NCBI RefSeq assembly: GCF_003288815.1
Contig: NZ_NHYM01000001.1
Coordinates: 186,001 to 250,000, forward strand
Reading direction: 5' to 3'
DNA: 64,000 nt
DNA from: Helicobacter sp. 16-1353
GTDB taxonomy: Bacteria > Campylobacterota > Campylobacteria > Campylobacterales > Helicobacteraceae
Shown: positions 21,968 to 50,757 of the stretch, piece after piece
Layout of the letters: every line of letters begins with the position of its first letter
How positions within the stretch are numbered: the stretch's first letter is position 1
Program-made: the position numbers and the translations under genes
Notes under the pieces: generated by a model
Seen by the model: the letters and a program-made list of their open reading frames with translations, nothing else
Databases searched by the model: none
Told to the model about the DNA's origin: nothing

Positions 21968-23365
21968 TTAGAGAGTGGCTTTTGGATGGGACTTTAAATC
22001 TTTTAGTTTATTCTTACTTTCACCCTTATTTAGAATCCTATGGAAAAAATAATAAATTATTAGAGCAATTCGCCAAATATGCGTTTTTAAGCTCCTCTTA
22101 TATGGCTTTAGGAAAATCTCTTTTTTGGGCGTTTCTTTGTGAGTTTTATAATCTTTTAGTATTTCTTTCCCCATAGATTCTAGCATTGAATAATCCTCTA
22201 AAACCCGCCTTCTAGCCTCCAAAATCGCCCCAAAATGCTCTTCATAAAAGTTGGATTCTAAGAGATTTTCTAGCCTCTTTATGGAATCTTCCACATTATA
22301 AATATCGATTTTTATAAACGAATTTTTTGGAAAATACCGCTCGATGTTCCCCGCCCCAAAGTAAATCGGCATCGCATAGCCAAGATAAGCGTCCATAATC
22401 TTTTCGCTGAAATAGTCGCTCTGGGCGTTGTTTTCGATAGCAATTGTGTATTTATAGGGCAGAATCCCGTCCTTTTTCTCCGCTAACTCATTTGGCGTTT
22501 TATTGCCATAAAAGTCGATTTTATCCCCAAGGTGGCTATTTTGAAGGGCTTTGACAAACTTCATTCTATCTAAATGCCCCGCAAACGCCTTTTTATCAAA
22601 ACTCGCAATGCAAGAAATCTCCTTAATCTTGCGTGGAATGGGGAGATTGCAAAGCTCGTTATATGGCATATTTGGAGCGAATAGAAAATACATCATCGGC
22701 GGATATTTGATGAAAATGGTGTTATGGAATTTTGCTTTACGGGGCGAATCTACTTCGTGTGAATGGGGATTTGAAGCGACTTGAATTGTAAGTTGGTTTG
22801 GATTTGTCGCAGGTGAGTTTAAAAAAGGCGAGTTTGAGTGCTGGAATCTTGTATTATCTAGCTGCTGCCCCCCCCCATTTTGGCTATTTCCGCCGTATTT
22901 AAGCACATTAGAATCTAACGCAAAATCCGCAGAATCTAAACTCGAATCTAGTGCGGAATCTAAATCTAACACAGAATCCAACGCAGTTTTAAACTCCACT
23001 TTTTCCAAGCAAGGAGCCTTAAAAAGCCCCTCGTTAAATGCAAATACAACATCGCAATGCGCGTAAGTCTCTGGCTTTATCGCCCACTCGTTTTTAAATG
23101 GTATGCCATACTGCTTAGATTCCTTTATATACGGCTCTTGCTGGAGTGCGAAAACTCGCCTAGCCCTTACCTTATGGGGTTTTATGGTCTTATTTATGAT
23201 TAGCACATAGTCGCAGTCAATGGGCTTTTCATCAAACCCGCGGAATTCAAAACTTAACTCTTCCCCACTTGGAGCGATAAACTTGCTATCGCCATTTTTT
23301 GAGAGATTTTTAATTTGACTTTTAAAGCCCTCCCTATAATCGCTTAAAATACACACTTTTATCAT
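21968..23365 (-). CDS. GT10 alpha-1,3-fucosyltransferase-like, phase variable (ON)
   Basis: A 465-aa glycosyltransferase whose C-terminal half matches family GT10. IAIENNAQSDYFSEKIMDAYLGYAMPIYFGAG (in pieces: AIENNAQSDYFSEKIMDAYL, PIYFGAG) is the GDP-fucose-binding signature, followed by FIKIDIYN. Such enzymes build Lewis-type antigens on Helicobacter LPS. Residues 129-153 form an Asp-Ser-rich insert (LDSALDSSLDSADFALDSN). A G9 tract (C9 on the plus strand at 22868-22876) encodes Gly164-166 and keeps the frame open, so the gene is on as sequenced. It diverges from a second phase-variable glycosyltransferase, 54 bp apart. Confidence 0.85.
   Translation of the reverse strand: MIKVCILSDYREGFKSQIKNLSKNGDSKFIAPSGEELSFEFRGFDEKPIDCDYVLIINKTIKPHKVRARRVFALQQEPYIKESKQYGIPFKNEWAIKPETYAHCDVVFAFNEGLFKAPCLEKVEFKTALDSVLDLDSALDSSLDSADFALDSNVLKYGGNSQNGGGQQLDNTRFQHSNSPFLNSPATNPNQLTIQVASNPHSHEVDSPRKAKFHNTIFIKYPPMMYFLFAPNMPYNELCNLPIPRKIKEISCIASFDKKAFAGHLDRMKFVKALQNSHLGDKIDFYGNKTPNELAEKKDGILPYKYTIAIENNAQSDYFSEKIMDAYLGYAMPIYFGAGNIERYFPKNSFIKIDIYNVEDSIKRLENLLESNFYEEHFGAILEARRRVLEDYSMLESMGKEILKDYKTHKETPKKEIFLKPYKRSLKTHIWRIALIIYYFFHRILNKGESKNKLKDLKSHPKATL
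22868..22876 (-). repeat. Poly-G tract (G9) in fucosyltransferase gene
   Basis: Nine consecutive C on the plus strand (G on the coding strand) lie inside the open frame, codons 164-166. Length change by one base would truncate the protein before the GT10 domain. Confidence 0.9.
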
Positions 23366-23419: not shown

Positions 23420-25095
23420 GTGAAAATTTCAGTTACAATCATAGCAAAAAACGCCCAAAAACACTTAAGCGAGTGTTTGCAAAGTTTAAGCGAGTTTGAT
23501 GAGATAATCTTGCTAGATAATGAGTCTAGCGATGAGACGAGAGAAATCGCTAAAAGCTACCCAAATGTGCGGATTTTTAGCACGGAGTTTATCGGCTTTG
23601 GGGCGATGAAAAATCTAGCGATTAGCTATGCTAAAAATGAGTGGATTTTCTCCATTGATAGCGATGAAATCGCCGAGCCGGACTTGCTAGAAGAGATAAA
23701 AAATCTAAAATTTAAGCAAAATGAAATCTATGCGATTTCTCGCAAAAATCTCTATAAAAATGAGTGGATAAAGGCGTGTGGCTGGTATCCGGACTATGTC
23801 AATCGTATTTTTAATAAAAATTTTACGAAATTTAATGATAACGAGGTGCATGAGAGCGTAACAATCCCTAAAAACGCCAAGATTCTAAGGCTAGATTCCC
23901 ATATCAAGCACTATGCCTATGGCTCAATCTCCCAGCTCTCGCATAAAATGGAATTCTACAGCACACTTTGGGCGAGAAATAACGCTCACAAAAGTGCCAC
24001 GCCATTAAAGGCGATTGTTCGCTCTATGTGGTCGTTTGTGCGGAATTATCTTTTCAAAAAGGGGTTTTTATACGGCTACAAGGGCTTTATCATAAGCTTT
24101 TTTAATGCAAGTGGTGTGCTGGTCAAATATATGAAACTCTATGAGCTAAAAACGCGTGAAAACTCCGTCTCGCTCATCATTACGACCTATAATCAAAAGG
24201 AATCTTTAAGGGCGGTTTTGGATTCCACACTGCGACTAAATAAAATGCCAAGTGAGATTCTAATCGCCGATGACGGGAGCAAGGCTGATACGAGGGAGCT
24301 AGTGGAATCTTACAAGGCGAAATTCCACATTCCGCTAATTCACATCTGGCACGAAGATAGGGGCTTTCGGCTCTCACACATTCGCAATTTGGCGATAGAT
24401 TCCGCAAATGGCGAGTATATCATTATCATCGATGGCGATATGATTTTAGAGCCAAACTTTGTAAGCGACCACTTGGAAAAGGCTAAGAAAGGCGTTTTCT
24501 TGCAAGGAAGTAGAGTGATACTAGATGAAAAAGTGAGTAAGGAAATCTTGGCTTTAACTTCGCAAAATGGCGGGAATGGCTTAAGAGAAAATGGCGGAAA
24601 TAACGCAGATAATGGGGGGGGGAGCAAGTAGGTAGAATTCAAATAGATAGAATCCAAAAGGATACAAATCAAGTTGCTAGAATTGAAGTCGCTAAAATTT
24701 TGGCTAAACAAAGTTCGCTTAAGGCGAAACGATGCAAGATTCTATCTACGATTATCTACAAAACTTCCAAAATAAATGCGAAATTTTTTGACAAAAAGGA
24801 CTTTATAAAGGGCGTTAGGGGCTGCAATATGAGCTTTTTTAAAGAGGATTGCAAACATATCAATGGCTTTAATGAGGATTTTCAAAGCTGGGGGCGGGAG
24901 GACAGCGAGTTTGTAGCGAGATTTTTGTTTAATGGCGGGGAGTTTCAGCGACTGAAATTTGCCGGGATTGCCTACCACATTTATCACAAGGAAAATAACA
25001 AGGATTGCTTGGAATCTAATCATCAAATTTATTTGGATACGATTAAAAATCGCCTAAAAACTTGCCAAAATGGGATTGTGAAAAACTACAGATAA
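23420..25095 (+). CDS. Two-domain GT2 glycosyltransferase, phase variable (OFF)
   Basis: The GTG start at 23420 opens a 403-aa frame that stops just after a G9 tract (24614-24622). Residues 1-250 resemble WaaE-type glycosyltransferases (VTIIAKNAQKHLSECLQSL, WIFSIDSDE). A second GT2 domain starts near 253 (SLIITTYNQKESLRAVLDS, IADDGS, IIDGDM). The missing C-terminal part is encoded downstream in another frame to 25095, with CNMSFFKEDC, GREDSEF and YHIYHKEN. With G10 the frames join without a stop and give 558 aa. So this is an intact gene in the off phase. It probably modifies LOS or capsule. Confidence 0.85.
24614..24622 (+). repeat. Poly-G tract (G9) in GT2 gene
   Basis: Nine G residues encode Gly399-401 and are followed two codons later by TAG. 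G10 (or G7) restores the downstream frame. Confidence 0.9.
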
Positions 25096-37183: not shown

Positions 37184-38763
37184 ATGATGAGGGAAAACAA
37201 TGAAATATGGGGCTGGGAGTTCATTAAACACACCAAAAATTTTAGCAAACTTAGTAAAAAATATATTCGTAAAAATGTTTATGGGGGGGGGCAGAATCTA
37301 GTCTAGAATCTCCAAAATACACTCTAGAATCTAGAGCAAAATCTGTCCTAGAATCTCTAAAATGTAAAGCAAAATCCACTCTAAATCTAGCCCACCAAAA
37401 GGCACAAGATTCTAAGCAAGATTCTAGATTCTATAGCAAAATAAAGAGTTGGATTCCAGCCACTTTATTAAATCTATCAAATCTCTTAAATCCCCGCCAC
37501 TCAAATAAATCTCACAATCCAAATTCCCCCACGCCACGCCAAAAAGTAGCTCCAAACCATATCCTTTATCCACTATTTTTGCTTCCACTTATCCTAACGC
37601 CATTTTCGCCATTTTATGCCTATATCACTTGCGTTTTTGTTATGATTGGGCTATCTAAATTTATCACAAAAGAATTTAGGATTTTGCTTGGGCTAACGCT
37701 AGTTTTTAATATCGCAGTTATCTATGCAAGTAAGTTAAGTTTCCATGTTGGGCTAGATTTCGATGATGATTTTACTAGATATTATCAAAACTACCTTGAT
37801 ATTTATGATGGAATCAGCGGGGCAATGTTTTATTTTGGTGGTGAATTTGAAATCGGGCTTGGAGTGTTTTATAAGATTCTATCCATATTGTTCCCTAAAC
37901 TCCTCCCAAGTAGTGTGCTACTTTTTACCGCTTTAAGCGTTTGTCTATTATTTTATATCTGGCTTGAAGTGTATATTTTAAAGTATTTCAAGGCATACCA
38001 GAGAGCCGCATTAGTTGCATTTTGTATGTTCTTAGATATTTTTATGGAAACTATCGGGCTGACTAGGCAGTGTTTTAGCACCATATTTTTATTATATGCA
38101 TTTTCTAGCAAGGATTGGCGTGGTAGAGTGGGATTTTTAGCTATTGCTATGATTTTTCACATAAGTGCGATATTTATATTTACGACGTTTTATGTTATTA
38201 AATACTTTCCAAAAGTTAGCCTATTTTTATTACTTTGTTTCACGCTATTTTTTATGCAAGATTCCGCGAGTGTGAATGCTACAATTAATGGCATAGCATT
38301 ATTTCTAAAAGGATTTTTACCAGATAAAGCCATCACATACTTTACATATTATATAAATGACGCAGGATTTACGCCCTATTATTTCGTGTATATGCCAATT
38401 ATGAAGTTTATCTTAAGCCTATGTGTGCTTTTCTCTATCTTTATGTTATGCCCAAAAGATAAGATTCTAAAGCATTTTAAGATGTATATTCTAATTTGCT
38501 TTTTTATATATTTTACACATATTCTGCCGTCTCGCTCGGTTTTCTTGCTTACTAATATGCTATTTTATTTCGTGGTTTTTGTGAGCTTTAGGCGTTTTTT
38601 TAATCTCACGCTATTCTTTTTCTTCCCATATTTTATATTTAGAATGTATAAATGGCTCATATCGCCTGATGTAGCCACAGATTACACTTCTACTCATCTC
38701 TTTTTCTGGTATCCAGAGAGTGGCATTTATCCATTTTACTATCTATTTCAAGGAGTTTTATAA
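37184..38763 (+). CDS. EpsG/Wzy-like polysaccharide polymerase, phase variable (OFF)
   Basis: The ATG at 37184 opens a frame that ends in TAG soon after a G9 tract (37283-37291). With G10 the frame continues without a stop to 38763, giving 526 aa. The N-terminal 33 residues (IWGWEFIKHTKNFSKLSKKY) are basic. A 60-residue linker after the tract contains ESSLES-type repeats from GAATC clusters. From about residue 130 follow some ten hydrophobic segments resembling EpsG/O-antigen polymerase proteins, with LDFDDDFTRYYQNYLDIYDG as the loop. A TTG at 37579 might give a shorter product even when off. It overlaps the Wzz-like gene by one base (TAATG). Confidence 0.8.
37283..37291 (+). repeat. Poly-G tract (G9) in polymerase gene
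   Basis: Nine G residues encode Gly34-36. In the present length the frame closes at TAG five codons later; G10 or G7 opens it. Confidence 0.9.
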
Positions 38764-41669: not shown

Positions 41670-41830
41670 AGATTTGTAAAAATTGCTAAAGCAATTTTTC
41701 ATAAATTTCTTAGTCTCCGTGCGTTAGCATTGGGGGGATAAGGGGAGCGATTTCGCCTTTGCCACGAAGTGGCAAATTCATCATTCAAGCCCCCTTGTCC
41801 CCCCCCCCCTTTTTTTTTACTAAACAAGAC
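41670..41830 (-). repeat. Dispersed hairpin repeat, copy 2
   Basis: Read on the minus strand this matches 12283-12480: TTTAGTAAA, a homopolymer stretch, GACAAG, GGGCTTGAATGATGA, TTTGCCA with a hairpin, then CTAACGCACGG. The stretch that is short in copy 1 is expanded here to A9G11. Boundaries are approximate. Confidence 0.7.
41799..41818. repeat. C11-T9 homopolymer tract
   Basis: Eleven C followed by nine T, in non-coding DNA inside copy 2 of the dispersed repeat. Such tracts are slippage-prone. Confidence 0.85.
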
Positions 41831-45993: not shown

Positions 45994-47248
45994 ATGGAAT
46001 TCAATGAAGCAATAAACGGGGGGGGGATTTTTTAGAGCCTTAAATAATTACGCAAAAAAAGACAAGAAATCTCCTACTTTAATAGCAATACCTGATACTT
46101 CCGCACTACTTAAAAATATACGACTCTTATATAGCTTATTAGAGGATTATGATTTTGTGCTAATCCCAACAACGGTAATGAGGGAATTGACACACATAAA
46201 AGATAGGAAAAAATCTCATAATTCCACTTCCGCCGATAGACAAAATGCAAAAATGGCATGGGAAGTTCTAGTTACTTTAAATGATTGCATACTCACATAT
46301 TCTACAAAAGTTTATAAAATTGATAATGAAAAATACAAGATTCCAGATAGCACACAAAAAGGGGCAAATAATATAAAAAACGACCATAAGCTTATGGCAT
46401 TAGCGGATGATATTTCACGGAAAAATCTTGGTAAAGTTCATATCGTGCATAATGATGTGGATTTTGCCGTGTATAGTGGAGTGGCTATAACAATTGCGGA
46501 GTATTTTGCAAAGCGAAATAAAATAGCAGATTACACAGATATAGATAAGCTAGATAAGGAATTTAATAATTTAGAAAGTCTTAGAGAAATAATCAAGCGA
46601 GTAGATATAAATGCGTATTTAGAAAATGGAGCGACGCTATTAATAAATACCATAAAGTGCAATATGCCCGAACAAATCAAAGCTAGAGGCGGAGTTAGAA
46701 TACCAGATAGAAAAGTGATAGAGAAAATAAAATTTCTCTTAGACAATGGGGCAGATTTAAACAAAAACGACAATGGATACCATTGCTTACCACCATTATC
46801 ACATAGCATACAATTAAGAGAATCCTATGGCTTTGATATTTTTAAATTGCTAATAGAGCGGGATTGCGATATAAATAAGGCTTCAAGGGACGATAGCAAT
46901 CCAAAGAAAATAGGAGGCTTAAACGAGGGAAATACGCCACTTATGATAGCTTGTTTCCACTCTAAAAAGAAATTTATTCATATGCTTTGTGAGCGAGATG
47001 AGATTTCTATAAATCAGCAAGATAATAATGGCTTTACCGCTTTAATAAAATGTGCTCTCAAAAGATACGAGACAATAAAGCAAAATAAGCCCCACGAGCT
47101 AAATGACGAGCTATACGAATATATACGCGCCCAGCCTAAAGTAGATATATCTATTAGAGACAGGAATAACCACACAGCACAAGATTGGATAAAAAGAGGT
47201 GATTTCTTAAAGCAAGGGAAAAGCTATAAGGAAAATGAAAAATGGTAG
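45994..47248 (+). CDS. PIN-nuclease/ankyrin-repeat protein, phase variable (OFF)
   Basis: The ATG at 45994 (with AAGGG before it) starts a frame that reaches a G9 tract at codon 9 and stops at TAG three codons later. With G8 the frame stays open to 47248 and gives 417 aa. The N-terminal domain is a PIN nuclease: D34 (IPDTSALLKN), E64 (IPTTVMREL), D130 (NDHKLMALADD) and D154 (HNDVDF) are the four acidic residues expected. From about 195 ankyrin-type repeats follow (KFLLDNGADLNKND, GNTPLMIACFHSKKKF, NNGFTALIKCAL). It probably cuts RNA under control of the ankyrin part. It overlaps the radical SAM gene by seven bases. Confidence 0.85.
46018..46026 (+). repeat. Poly-G tract (G9) in PIN-ankyrin gene
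   Basis: Nine G at codons 9-11. G8 or G11 opens the long frame; the present G9 does not. Translation could only restart downstream (for example GTG at 46157) without the first catalytic Asp. Confidence 0.9.
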
Positions 47249-48120
47249 AGCGAATATGTATATCAATTAATAATATCTGCAATCTCAAATGTCGCTATTG
47301 CCATTTCCTAGAAAAGAACTCAGTGGAAAATACAAAAAAACTGGGCTATAAGCCGATGGATATTTTTAAGATTTTAGATAATGTAAAGCAATATGTAGGG
47401 CATTATAAACACATTTTTAAGATTGGATTTATCGGTAATGGTGAGCCATTATTAAATATCAATGATATAAAAAAATACTTGCTTTATATTAAGGATTATG
47501 AAAATATCCGCACTTATACTATTACAAATGGGACGATTGACTTAAAAGATAGCGATTGGGCTTTTTTAGAAAACCACAATATGAATGTCGGCTTTTCGCT
47601 TGATGGCTATAAGGAATTACACAATCTATATCGATGTGGCTCATTTGATAGAGTGATGAAAAATATCCAAAAATATAAGAATCTAACTAGGCGATACCCC
47701 ACGCTAAATGCCACCATAGGGGCAGAATCCTTAGAGAATAAAGAAAAAATTATAAGCTTTTTCGCTCATTTTGATACTAAAATCACATTCTCGCGAATGA
47801 TTGGCAAATATGGAATCTCCCTAGAACAATATAGGGAATTTATGGAGTTCGCACAAAAGCGACTAAGCGTAAGGAATGGCGGATTTGACTGCACGATGTA
47901 TGGTGGCTTATGTGGAGTAGGAGTGAATAATTATTTTTTCAGCAATGGCAAGGTGTATTTATGTGGGAATTGTATAGATTTGCCACATATCAAAAACAGC
48001 GACACTGGCTTTTTTGAACTAGAAAAAATTGCTTTAAAATTTAACAGAAGCAAATGCTACAAAGAAATTTTAGAAAATCAAAGCATTTGTAAAAATTATC
48101 AAAAGGTAGGAATCCTATGA
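47242..48120 (+). CDS. SPASM-type radical SAM enzyme
   Basis: A 292-aa radical SAM protein with the cluster motif CNLKCRYC (C13, C17, C20) and the GNGEP motif near 76-80. The C-terminal Cys group (CTMYGGLCGVG, YLCGNC, then CYKE and CKN) fits a SPASM or twitch domain holding extra Fe-S clusters. SPASM enzymes mature peptides or modify proteins and small molecules; the substrate here is unknown. The ATG overlaps the PIN-ankyrin stop (ATGGTAG) and the stop overlaps the next start (ATGA), so translation is coupled throughout. Confidence 0.88.
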   Translation: MVERICISINNICNLKCRYCHFLEKNSVENTKKLGYKPMDIFKILDNVKQYVGHYKHIFKIGFIGNGEPLLNINDIKKYLLYIKDYENIRTYTITNGTIDLKDSDWAFLENHNMNVGFSLDGYKELHNLYRCGSFDRVMKNIQKYKNLTRRYPTLNATIGAESLENKEKIISFFAHFDTKITFSRMIGKYGISLEQYREFMEFAQKRLSVRNGGFDCTMYGGLCGVGVNNYFFSNGKVYLCGNCIDLPHIKNSDTGFFELEKIALKFNRSKCYKEILENQSICKNYQKVGIL

Positions 48121-49250
48121 GAATTGCACTATATGGACTTCCCACCGCTGGGAAAACTTTTATTTTAGATGAGATTAGGCGAGGGGCTTTGCAGATTTTA
48201 GAGAATCTGCAAAATCAAGGCAAGATTTCACAAGAGATTCCACATTTAGAGGTTTTGCAAGGAAGCTATTTATTAAAGCAACTAGCTCCAAATTTTGAAT
48301 CCCTAAGCGAACAAGAACGCAATCAAATACGAATAAAACTAGCCCAAAATCTTACTAAAAAAGATGATTTTATAATCGATGGGCATTATGCCTTTGGAGA
48401 GCAAGTCGTTTTTACAAAAGCAGATGGTGCTTTGTATGATGTATTTTTGTATTTATATATTTCCCCAGAGATTCTAAAAGAGCGAATAGGGCAGTCAAGT
48501 AAAAATCAGCGATATTTAAAATACGACATTAAATCGTGGCAAGATATGGAGATTGAGGGATTGCGGACATATTGTCACAAAAACAATAAAGATTTTTATG
48601 TGCTAGATAATCCAGCACAAGGCTATTTTAGTGATATTAGCGTGGTGCTAGAATTTATAAATAAGATTCTAAACGGATTTAGTTGCTACAAGTTTGCCAA
48701 AAAATGTGCGGATATTATTTTACAAAAATCCACAAGTGATACAATCTCTTTATTTGATGGCGATAAAACTTTGATACTTGAAGATTCAAATGAGATTCTA
48801 GGCTGTAAAACGCAAGTTTTTAATGGTGATTTTTATAGCGGATTTCAATCGTGGAGACATCACTGCGAGTTGACAAAATTTATAAAAAATCTTAATAGAC
48901 GGAATCTTGGAGAATTAATCTCTAAGAATCTATCATTTAATCGCAAGGTTTTAGATGGCATTAGCAAGGATTCTTTTATATTGACCTCCGGAGTTTGCGA
49001 GATTTGGGAGCAAATATCTAAACAAATCAATATGCCATTTTTTGGCGGAATGCAAATGTGTGCGGACACAAAATTTTTTATCGCCAAAATACTTAGAGAA
49101 AATGGCAAAAATGTCATAGCTTACGGCGATGGAGCGAATGATTATTTTATGCTAAAAGAATCTAATAGGGGGCATATTGTCTTGCGAAAAAGTGGAAATA
49201 TGAGCCGTTCGCTTAAAAATATAGATTTAGAGGGGCTACATTTTGTTTGA
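48117..49250 (+). CDS. Fused P-loop kinase and HAD phosphatase
   Basis: A 377-aa two-domain protein. Residues 1-190 are an adenylate-kinase/thymidylate-kinase-like P-loop domain: Walker A GLPTAGKT (7-14), FIIDGHYAFGE as the Walker B-like segment, LYISPEILKERI as lid region. Residues from about 205 form a HAD phosphatase: LFDGDKTL (DxDxT), ILTSG, a Lys in TKFFIAKIL, and AYGDGANDYFML. The pairing of a kinase with a phosphatase suggests processing of a nucleotide-like molecule. It overlaps both neighbours. Confidence 0.85.
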   Translation: MRIALYGLPTAGKTFILDEIRRGALQILENLQNQGKISQEIPHLEVLQGSYLLKQLAPNFESLSEQERNQIRIKLAQNLTKKDDFIIDGHYAFGEQVVFTKADGALYDVFLYLYISPEILKERIGQSSKNQRYLKYDIKSWQDMEIEGLRTYCHKNNKDFYVLDNPAQGYFSDISVVLEFINKILNGFSCYKFAKKCADIILQKSTSDTISLFDGDKTLILEDSNEILGCKTQVFNGDFYSGFQSWRHHCELTKFIKNLNRRNLGELISKNLSFNRKVLDGISKDSFILTSGVCEIWEQISKQINMPFFGGMQMCADTKFFIAKILRENGKNVIAYGDGANDYFMLKESNRGHIVLRKSGNMSRSLKNIDLEGLHFV

Positions 49251-49776
49251 GATTAAAAAAACAAAAAGAATAAATCGCTTGATTGACATCACAAAATCTG
49301 ATTCAATGGTCGTGGGAGCAAAACTAGCCCTAGCACATATGCAATTAGGCTATTTGCTTGGGAGGCAAATGAGCGGATTTAAGCCGAGTGAAACCACTAT
49401 AATTGCGATATTGCGAGGTGGGATATTTTTCGCTGAGGGGATTTATTTTAAGCTAAATTGCAGATTTGAGATTTGCGACCCTAAAAGCGATGATTTGATT
49501 ATCCCAGCGACAAAAAATATAATTTTAGTAGATTCTGTGATTAACACTGGGAAAACGATAGAAAGGATTTATCAAAAAATACATATGGAAAATAGGCAAA
49601 AAAATATCTATGTGGCAAGTTGCGTGGTAAATAAAAAAGCCCTAGAAAATATCACATTTAAGGAGAATCTATACACCATTCGAGTATCAAATAACTCTTT
49701 TGTAGGCAGCAATATCACTAAACAAAATGGCGACATTGGACCAGATACCACAATGAGATTATTTAATGAATTTTAA
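49243..49776 (+). CDS. Phosphoribosyltransferase
   Basis: A 177-aa type I phosphoribosyltransferase, closest in look to uracil phosphoribosyltransferases. The PRPP-binding loop is IILVDSVINTGKT (about 95-107), where the usual second acidic residue is Ser, and IAILRGGIFFAEGIYF is the PPi-loop region. TTG at 49243 is the start and overlaps the upstream stop by eight bases. It ends the four-gene operon and would attach a base to PRPP or release it. Confidence 0.85.
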   Translation: MFEIKKTKRINRLIDITKSDSMVVGAKLALAHMQLGYLLGRQMSGFKPSETTIIAILRGGIFFAEGIYFKLNCRFEICDPKSDDLIIPATKNIILVDSVINTGKTIERIYQKIHMENRQKNIYVASCVVNKKALENITFKENLYTIRVSNNSFVGSNITKQNGDIGPDTTMRLFNEF

Positions 49777-49935: not shown

Positions 49936-50757
49936 ATGAAAGATTTACATATACACACAAAATATTCCGACGGCGAGTTTGACGAAAATGAGATTCTTGA
50001 AAAAATCATAAGTGCAGGGATTACAGAATTTGCAATTTGCGACCATGATACGATTGAGGGCTCAATGAAAGTTTGTGAAAAAATCAAACAACTTAATCTT
50101 GACATTATTTTTCATTCGGGTATTGAAATTACAAGCAGAATCAATGATATTTTTGATGGAATTAGCGTTCATTTGCTGGTTAGAGATTTTCAATTTGACG
50201 ATAAAGTTATATTAGATGCCATCTCTATTATGAAACGCAACCGATTAAAAAACCTTGATTTAATGCTGGAAGGTGTTAAGAAAGATTATAATGTTGAAAT
50301 TCCCAAGCAAAGAATTGAAGAAGTTTTAAAAGAAACAAATTCAATAGGTGAGCCACATGTTTATAAATTGCTATGTGAAATTAAAAATATTGATGAAACT
50401 TACTTTTATGATAAGACTATAAAAAATTTAAAAACAGAACATCTTAAAATTGACGCTGCTTGGCTACTTGAAAATTTTAAAGGACATCAAGGTTACATCA
50501 CCCTTGCTCACCCAATAAAGATAATGAAAGACTACAATTTTTCTTATGCTGATATTGAAAAAATTGTAGAACATTTACATGGTTATGGTCTTAAAGGTTT
50601 GGAGGTTGAATATAGTAAACACACAAAAAAAGATATTGCCGAATTCTCAAAAATCGCAGATAAATTTAATTTAATCAAAACCCCCGGTAGCGATTTTCAC
50701 GGACCAAATGTAAAACCAAATAGATTTTTGGGCGTTTGTCAAAAACAAGATTCTTAG
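49936..50757 (+). CDS. PHP-domain phosphoesterase
   Basis: A 273-aa metal-dependent phosphoesterase of the PHP family. Metal-binding motifs are DLHIHTKYSDG (3-13), FAICDHDTIEG (about 33-43), GIEIT and the C-terminal GSDFHG. It resembles YciV/RnmV-like 3',5'-nucleoside bisphosphate phosphatases, which also trim RNA ends. Its DNA lacks GAATC/GATTC clusters, unlike the nearby accessory DNA, so it may have been acquired. Whether it belongs to the upstream operon is unclear. Confidence 0.85.
   Translation: MKDLHIHTKYSDGEFDENEILEKIISAGITEFAICDHDTIEGSMKVCEKIKQLNLDIIFHSGIEITSRINDIFDGISVHLLVRDFQFDDKVILDAISIMKRNRLKNLDLMLEGVKKDYNVEIPKQRIEEVLKETNSIGEPHVYKLLCEIKNIDETYFYDKTIKNLKTEHLKIDAAWLLENFKGHQGYITLAHPIKIMKDYNFSYADIEKIVEHLHGYGLKGLEVEYSKHTKKDIAEFSKIADKFNLIKTPGSDFHGPNVKPNRFLGVCQKQDS

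Follow-up and report, generated by a model that had tools for sequence, protein, structure and literature searches.

A rare mobile cassette of Helicobacter, Clostridia and phages joins a PIN-ankyrin protein to three putative nucleotide-type enzymes and may serve in conflict

Ankyrin repeats and a ribonuclease are combined in RNase L, whose ankyrin repeats bind a nucleotide signal. As described for the Ter network, a nucleoside-type alarm signal is the proposed product of nucleobase phosphoribosyltransferases (PRTases) and HAD phosphoesterases (PMC7824862). Features of both kinds are found side by side in a stretch of 64,000 nucleotides of Helicobacter sp. 16-1353 (contig NZ_NHYM01000001.1, positions 186,001 to 250,000; hereafter the window), where the region analysed, 45994-49776, holds four plus-strand genes for a PIN-ankyrin protein, a radical SAM enzyme, a kinase-HAD fusion and a PRTase. 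As judged from comparative sequence analysis, that this four-gene cassette is a rare, mobile and real system is well supported; a role in conflict is moderately supported, whereas its exact chemistry is what we infer from the enzyme families.

An initial annotation of this DNA had described four genes that overlap end to start and act as one unit, and both points hold. Specifically, the ATG of the radical SAM gene (47242) lies inside the PIN-ankyrin gene, which stops at 47246-47248, giving an overlap of 7 bp; the kinase-HAD gene starts at ATG 48117 and overlaps the preceding gene by 4 bp, and the PRTase gene, with a TTG start at 49243, overlaps the kinase-HAD gene by 8 bp. The same gene order recurs, wherever the contig permits, in 18 further loci (four in Helicobacter, nine in Clostridia and five on viral contigs), and the gene set is therefore far beyond a chance association. 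With the window copy, the 19 loci span two bacterial phyla and phages. In particular, a family-wide search with the radical SAM protein recovered four Helicobacter relatives, including H. cinaedi and H. muridarum, all with the four genes in order; in one Helicobacter locus, from a metagenome-assembled genome (L024), the kinase-HAD gene is frameshifted. Scanning contigs from 84,980 species with an alignment of the radical SAM proteins brought in six loci from Clostridia, one of which (L031) starts within the cassette, and a search of 299 Lachnospiraceae genomes gave five full-length kinase-HAD matches, three of them new loci. Five complete cassettes came from viral contigs, and separate viral scans with the kinase-HAD and PIN-ankyrin proteins returned the same contigs and one more that ends within the PIN-ankyrin gene.

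Within the sensitivity of the searches made, the genes were not seen to occur separately, as they would if they did not belong together: among the confirmed matches of the viral and genome-contig scans, all had their partners adjacent or ran off a contig end. As a single-sequence query the kinase-HAD protein recovered none of the relatives that the family-wide radical SAM search recovered, and against plasmid and phage records it gave no full-length match. Plasmid matches of the radical SAM protein were mostly maturases of sulfatases or of ribosomally synthesized and post-translationally modified peptides (RiPPs), and the two neighbourhoods inspected were of RiPP type, without the partner genes. 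The cassette is rare, being present in 1 of 398 genomes sampled across the Clostridia phylum (the centre genome itself), in 1 of 299 drawn from the order of the window (its own genome) and in 5 of 121 of its family.

The mobility of the cassette is most directly visible in phages. In locus L082 it lies between the terminase and portal genes, on the strand opposite to both, and in L080 and L084 between holin/endolysin genes and a serine-recombinase integrase (PHROGs assignments). Such positions are usual for genes that serve the lysogen and not phage replication. Moreover, defence-type genes lie within about 7 kb of some chromosomal copies: a type I-like methyltransferase with a DUF3800 protein in L025, a BsaWI-like restriction pair in L023, a GmrSD-like protein in L022 and weak DdmD/DdmE matches in L077. 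The accessory phage positions and these neighbours lend support to a conflict role, the neighbours being supportive only, as their counts lack a random-locus control. In six loci a NERD-domain nuclease gene follows the cassette (Table 1), assigned by Pfam in L033, L077 and L080 and by sequence similarity in L081, L083 and L084, and its product is a possible fifth component. Two side observations concern the same surroundings: the weak DdmE and DdmD matches belong to adjacent proteins (L077:13070-15954) that may form a divergent DdmDE-like pair, and a RelA/SpoT-domain protein is encoded a few kb upstream of the cassette in L078 (2838-3836).

The PIN-ankyrin protein matches Pfam PIN_4 (7e-11) and Ank_2 (2.5e-12), and the window copy has all four acidic residues typical of a PIN ribonuclease, as had been noted in the initial annotation. 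Among 20 PIN-ankyrin homologues, D24 is kept in 18, E54 in 19, D120 in 17 and D144 in all. The N-terminus of the Clostridia and phage proteins is a Cro/CI-type helix-turn-helix (HTH) domain (Pfam HTH_3, 4e-15 in L034 and 7e-15 in L082), which the Helicobacter copies do not have. In the window, the gene contains a poly-G tract, and the slippery switch suggested earlier is borne out by the reading frames: from ATG 45994, the G9 frame ends at TAG 46033-46035, whereas the G8 frame is open to 47248, with a product that starts MEFNEAINGGGFFRALNNYAKKDKKSPTLIAIPDTSALL. Since only G8 reads through, the assembled genome has the gene in the OFF state. The first in-frame ATG, GTG or TTG after the tract is GTG 46157, itself already beyond the first catalytic Asp, and the OFF state should therefore give no working PIN domain.

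Impairment of the PIN domain recurs in other copies. The HTH-bearing proteins of L080 and L076 carry D24H; in L080 a second PIN-ankyrin protein, without HTH, has D24 and E54 intact, so that the tasks of regulator and RNase can apparently be split between proteins, and in L076 the second gene is deleted, only its two ends remaining, in one frame. Repeated loss of this sort, through the G9 tract, D24H in L076 and L080 and the L076 deletion, is the behaviour that would be expected of a costly effector and lends further support to a conflict role. As a separate observation, L032 (4397-7011) contains a tandem pair of HTH-PIN-ankyrin genes, in the second of which E54 is replaced by D.

The radical SAM enzyme (Pfam Radical_SAM, 4e-15) retains its CxxxCxxC motif and four additional cysteines in 19 of 19 loci. 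In structure comparisons its model (mean predicted local distance difference test, pLDDT, 76) is closest to anSME, followed by other SPASM enzymes, BlsE, MoaA and viperin. Of the earlier designation as a SPASM-like radical SAM enzyme, the radical SAM part stands, while a full SPASM domain does not, as four and not seven C-terminal cysteines are conserved; a SPASM peptide maturase was rejected, the seven-cysteine C-terminus being absent and only C217, C224, C241 and C272 invariant there. The affinity of the enzyme, by fold and sequence, to peptidyl-modifying radical SAM proteins nevertheless raises the alternative that it modifies the PIN-ankyrin protein, the other enzymes tuning the modification. 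No small open reading frame within 700 bp of the operons is conserved across host groups as a RiPP-like precursor would be, and of the proteins in the operon PIN-ankyrin would then be the most probable substrate. This alternative is quite improbable, as it leaves the UPRTase-like and kinase-HAD proteins unexplained, PIN-ankyrin appears to have been swapped between enzyme backgrounds, and the radical SAM C-terminus has only the four conserved cysteines.

The kinase-HAD fusion predicted earlier is confirmed by Pfam AAA_17 (7e-7) and a weak HAD match. In its structure model (pLDDT 85; predicted template-modelling score 0.88), the kinase domain matches adenylate and thymidylate kinases, archaeal-type adenylate kinases best of all, and the C-terminal HAD domain is phosphoserine-phosphatase-like. 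T4 Pnkp has the same kinase-plus-HAD order, and one could imagine that the PIN domain cuts RNA and the fusion protein heals the ends, as polynucleotide kinase-phosphatase (PNK) does; an RNA-ligase-like gene directly upstream of the cassette in L034 (882-1442; RLIG1 Pfam match below cut-off) would fit such a repair function. However, the kinase has the fold of nucleoside monophosphate (NMP) kinases, the HAD domain is of another type, no PNK is found among the best 50 fold matches and the ligase-like gene was seen in a single locus. A T4-type PNK is thus ruled out on fold, and RNA repair is very improbable.

The PRTase identification is confirmed and can be refined to a UPRTase-like enzyme (Pfam UPRTase, 3.6e-9; PF14681, 36.9 against a cut-off of 27), with a UPRTase fold (1vst, 1.6e-15) that includes the loop for phosphoribosyl pyrophosphate (PRPP). 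Its C-terminal loop, which we take to be the base-binding loop of UPRTases, is altered to GPDTxxRLF. Membership in retron type III-A was rejected: the match to the PADLOC model PRTase_III-A is confined to about 52-61 residues at the PRPP loop and is not that of a full-length effector, and no reverse transcriptase lies inside the operons read. For the cassette as a whole, no PADLOC model covers the kinase-HAD protein, and matches to the other parts are at domain level only.

The UPRTase and NMP-kinase folds agree with the proposal of the initial annotation that the enzymes act on nucleotides, and would also suit a modified pyrimidine nucleotide that acts in its own right as a poison of phage polymerases, in the manner of the ddhCTP made by viperin, with PIN-ankyrin as regulator and second-line effector. 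In favour of such a direct antiviral product, the radical SAM protein is weakly similar to prokaryotic viperins (PADLOC pVip, 1.4e-12 in the window and 2e-15 in L082), viperin folds are among its structure matches, and some pVips are paired with kinases, as the name of a PADLOC model indicates. Against it, the NCBIfam viperin model NF038283 gives 39.9 bits for a cut-off of 180, which rules out viperin membership, anSME and SPASM folds outscore viperin, and a chain terminator needs neither a HAD phosphatase nor an RNase. Consequently, a directly antiviral nucleotide is rather unlikely.

Two further features indicate how the parts may be related. A single polypeptide comprises kinase, HAD and PRTase in L030, L077 and L078, and these activities therefore probably share a pathway. 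Moreover, identity distances correlate strongly between the enzymes (radical SAM with kinase-HAD 0.95, kinase-HAD with PRTase 0.93, radical SAM with PRTase 0.88) and less between them and PIN-ankyrin (0.42-0.54), a gap to which the harder alignment of the latter may add; PIN-ankyrin has seemingly been exchanged between enzyme backgrounds, for example in L084. Close co-evolution of the enzymes and looser co-evolution of PIN-ankyrin would fit enzymes that act as a module, producing or removing a single nucleotide-type compound, and have as their partner a sensor-effector that can be exchanged.

Upstream of ten operons, arrays of operator-like sites occur, with expected counts below one per region. 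GTTGC arrays precede L030, L032, L033, L077, L078, L081 and L084, with three to six sites each, spaced mostly by about 20/30/20 bp and followed by an inverted site about 32 bp beyond; TGTGCR sites recur upstream of L034, L035 and L083, mostly at 20/33 bp, with the inverted site 26 bp beyond. No such array is found upstream of L080 and L076, which have a different HTH, L082 has one GTTGC site only, and the Helicobacter copies have neither HTH nor array. In L084, the kinase-HAD protein is nearest to those of L034 and L035, the HTH-PIN-ankyrin protein is 84% identical to that of L078, and the array is of GTTGC type. Array type thus seems to follow HTH type and not enzyme background, which points to the arrays as putative operators and to autoregulation. 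In place of these elements, three Helicobacter copies have simple-sequence tracts, the coding G9 of the window and, in two relatives, T14 and T13 (Table 1). At the window locus no RNA families were found, and a promoter and terminator scan scored no better than shuffles.

Arrays of this kind, together with overlapping genes, mobile carriage and recurrent PIN inactivation, might also be expected of an addiction or maintenance module, in which a PIN-ankyrin toxin silenced by the product of the enzymes guards prophages and islands against loss. Yet the enzymes persist without an intact PIN copy in L076 and with PIN off in the window, so they are not a mere antidote; there is no VapBC-type small antitoxin gene inside the operons, and small flanking open reading frames are not conserved. 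Such a module is likewise rather unlikely.

The preferred reading, to which we assign a probability of roughly 0.4, is a mobile conflict cassette spread by phages, with a PIN-ankyrin RNase under the control of a nucleotide compound, which would probably be a defence or self-sacrifice device; the earlier suggestion of a defence or self-poisoning module thus gains moderate support from phage carriage, defence neighbours and PIN losses. In the Clostridia and phage form, HTH-PIN-ankyrin would occupy the operator array before its operon and keep expression low, the same protein being a putative PIN RNase whose ankyrin part offers a sensor surface. The UPRTase-like, NMP-kinase/HAD and radical SAM enzymes would act in a common pathway, for the synthesis or removal of a modified nucleotide, probably of pyrimidine type. 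Infection by a competing phage would cause a nucleotide change sensed by the ankyrin part, whereupon the operon would be derepressed, RNA cleavage unleashed and the cell stopped. In the window copy, which lacks the HTH, the poly-G tract would instead toggle the RNase on and off across the population. The more specific proposal of a novel type of immunity encoded by phages, in which a hitherto unknown modified nucleotide made by these enzymes directly gates a DNA-binding PIN-ankyrin, one protein being repressor, metabolite sensor and RNase, is doubtful. Several points weigh against the conflict reading: 3 of the 20 PIN-ankyrin proteins lack a conserved D120, the radical SAM enzyme is closer to peptide-modifying enzymes (anSME, ChlB) than to nucleotide-modifying ones, several of the chromosomal copies are without evident defence genes nearby, and PADLOC has no model that names the four-gene system.

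As for its origin, the window copy is nearer to Clostridia than to other Helicobacter copies. Identities to the Clostridia proteins are 52-65% for radical SAM, 42-52% for kinase-HAD and 57-62% for the PRTase (unfused), compared with 33-36%, 25% and 31-37% for the H. cinaedi group; window PIN-ankyrin is 51% identical to the Lachnospiraceae homologue of L034 and 25-30% to the other Helicobacter ones. The probable source of the window copy is for this reason the Clostridia/phage pool, with an acquisition independent of the other Helicobacter copies. In congeners, the cassette is absent from all four 16-kb stretches examined around alaS, three of which have the alaS-recJ-pyrG-rnr block and the fourth alaS only. 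Just downstream of the cassette, a plus-strand gene (49936-50757) encodes a PHP-domain phosphatase, with 3',5'-nucleoside bisphosphate phosphatase as best model, below cut-off; no such gene was seen next to the cassette in other loci or next to alaS in congeners, and this one could be either a passenger or an addition made locally. Elsewhere in the window, poly-G/poly-C tracts of 9-11 bases at 22868-22876, 24614-24622, 37283-37291 and 41799-41809 are likely contingency loci; runs of at least G8 occur at five window sites (12 overlapping matches against 0.44 expected from shuffles), and these other tracts suggest that the host genome uses poly-G switches more widely.

Table 1. Coordinates of the cassette and associated features (window positions unless a locus is given)
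Feature	Position	Strand	Remarks
PIN-ankyrin gene	45994..47248	+	about 417 amino acids with G8; frameshifted (OFF) in the assembly, tract G9
G9 homopolymer, candidate phase switch	46018..46026	+	frame restored by G8
PIN domain	46088..46462	+	D24, E54, D120, D144 (numbered from 46025)
Ankyrin-repeat part	46592..47245	+	motif NEGNTPLMIAC...ISINQQDNNGFTALIK, strongly conserved across loci
Radical SAM enzyme	47242..48120	+	CxxxCxxC at C13/C17/C20; further invariant C217, C224, C241, C272
Kinase-HAD fusion	48117..49250	+	P-loop domain about 48117-48671; HAD about 48729-49247 (DxDxT, K319, GDxxxD)
UPRTase-like PRTase	49243..49776	+	VDSVINTGKT loop; C-terminal GPDTTMRLFN
NERD nuclease genes	L033:4171-5289; L077:5584-6660; L080:9507-10679; L081:4998-5978; L083:10101-11165; L084:7767-8849		
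T14 and T13 tracts, possible transcriptional switches	L022:1024-1037; L025:13505-13517		about 40 bp upstream of the PIN-ankyrin start

The result is a defined, rare and mobile cassette of four genes (five if the NERD nuclease is counted) whose enzyme pathway looks intact and which gut bacteria and their phages exchange, its carriers being Lachnospiraceae, phages and enterohepatic Helicobacter. Should it indeed act in conflict, it would add to bacterial immunity a new nucleotide chemistry and a protein that is repressor, sensor and RNase, and the natural G8/G9 switch and phage-borne versions make that role directly testable. In agreement with the initial annotation, which knew of no such system, no openly licensed paper was found to name the set of PIN domain, ankyrin, radical SAM and phosphoribosyltransferase, and no matching library family was found; with respect to these sources the cassette is rated a previously undescribed gene system, a description in subscription journals, outside the search, being possible.

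Each of the nearest known systems shares a part with it. VapC/PIN toxins and PhoH2-type PIN proteins have the PIN RNase fold and acidic residues, whereas the cassette protein is of the PIN_4 family and fused to ankyrin and usually HTH, with no VapB-like antitoxin gene and no helicase. The anSME/SPASM enzymes are the best fold match of the radical SAM protein, whose C-terminus is however shorter, with four conserved cysteines, and near which no sulfatase or RiPP precursor was seen. Prokaryotic viperins likewise place a radical SAM enzyme in a nucleotide context, some with kinases, but the cassette enzyme is of another subfamily, with extra C-terminal cysteines and UPRTase, HAD and RNase partners. 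RNase L offers the pairing of ankyrin repeats and RNase, and the cassette ankyrin part matches its ankyrins, although this similarity is generic and the nuclease is a PIN and not a kinase-like KEN domain. TerB, TerC and TerD were not among the neighbours scanned, no search being aimed at them, and the PRTase_2 family of the Ter network (PF15609) gives 21.9 bits against a cut-off of 28.8, so that by the type of its PRTase the cassette falls outside that network. The Ter network is nevertheless the nearest published idea found: the cassette resembles it in uniting a PRTase and a HAD protein on mobile elements (there phages and plasmids) for a proposed nucleoside-type signal, while, compared with that description, the radical SAM enzyme, the NMP kinase and PIN-ankyrin occur only in the cassette, and its PRTase is of the UPRTase type (PMC7824862).

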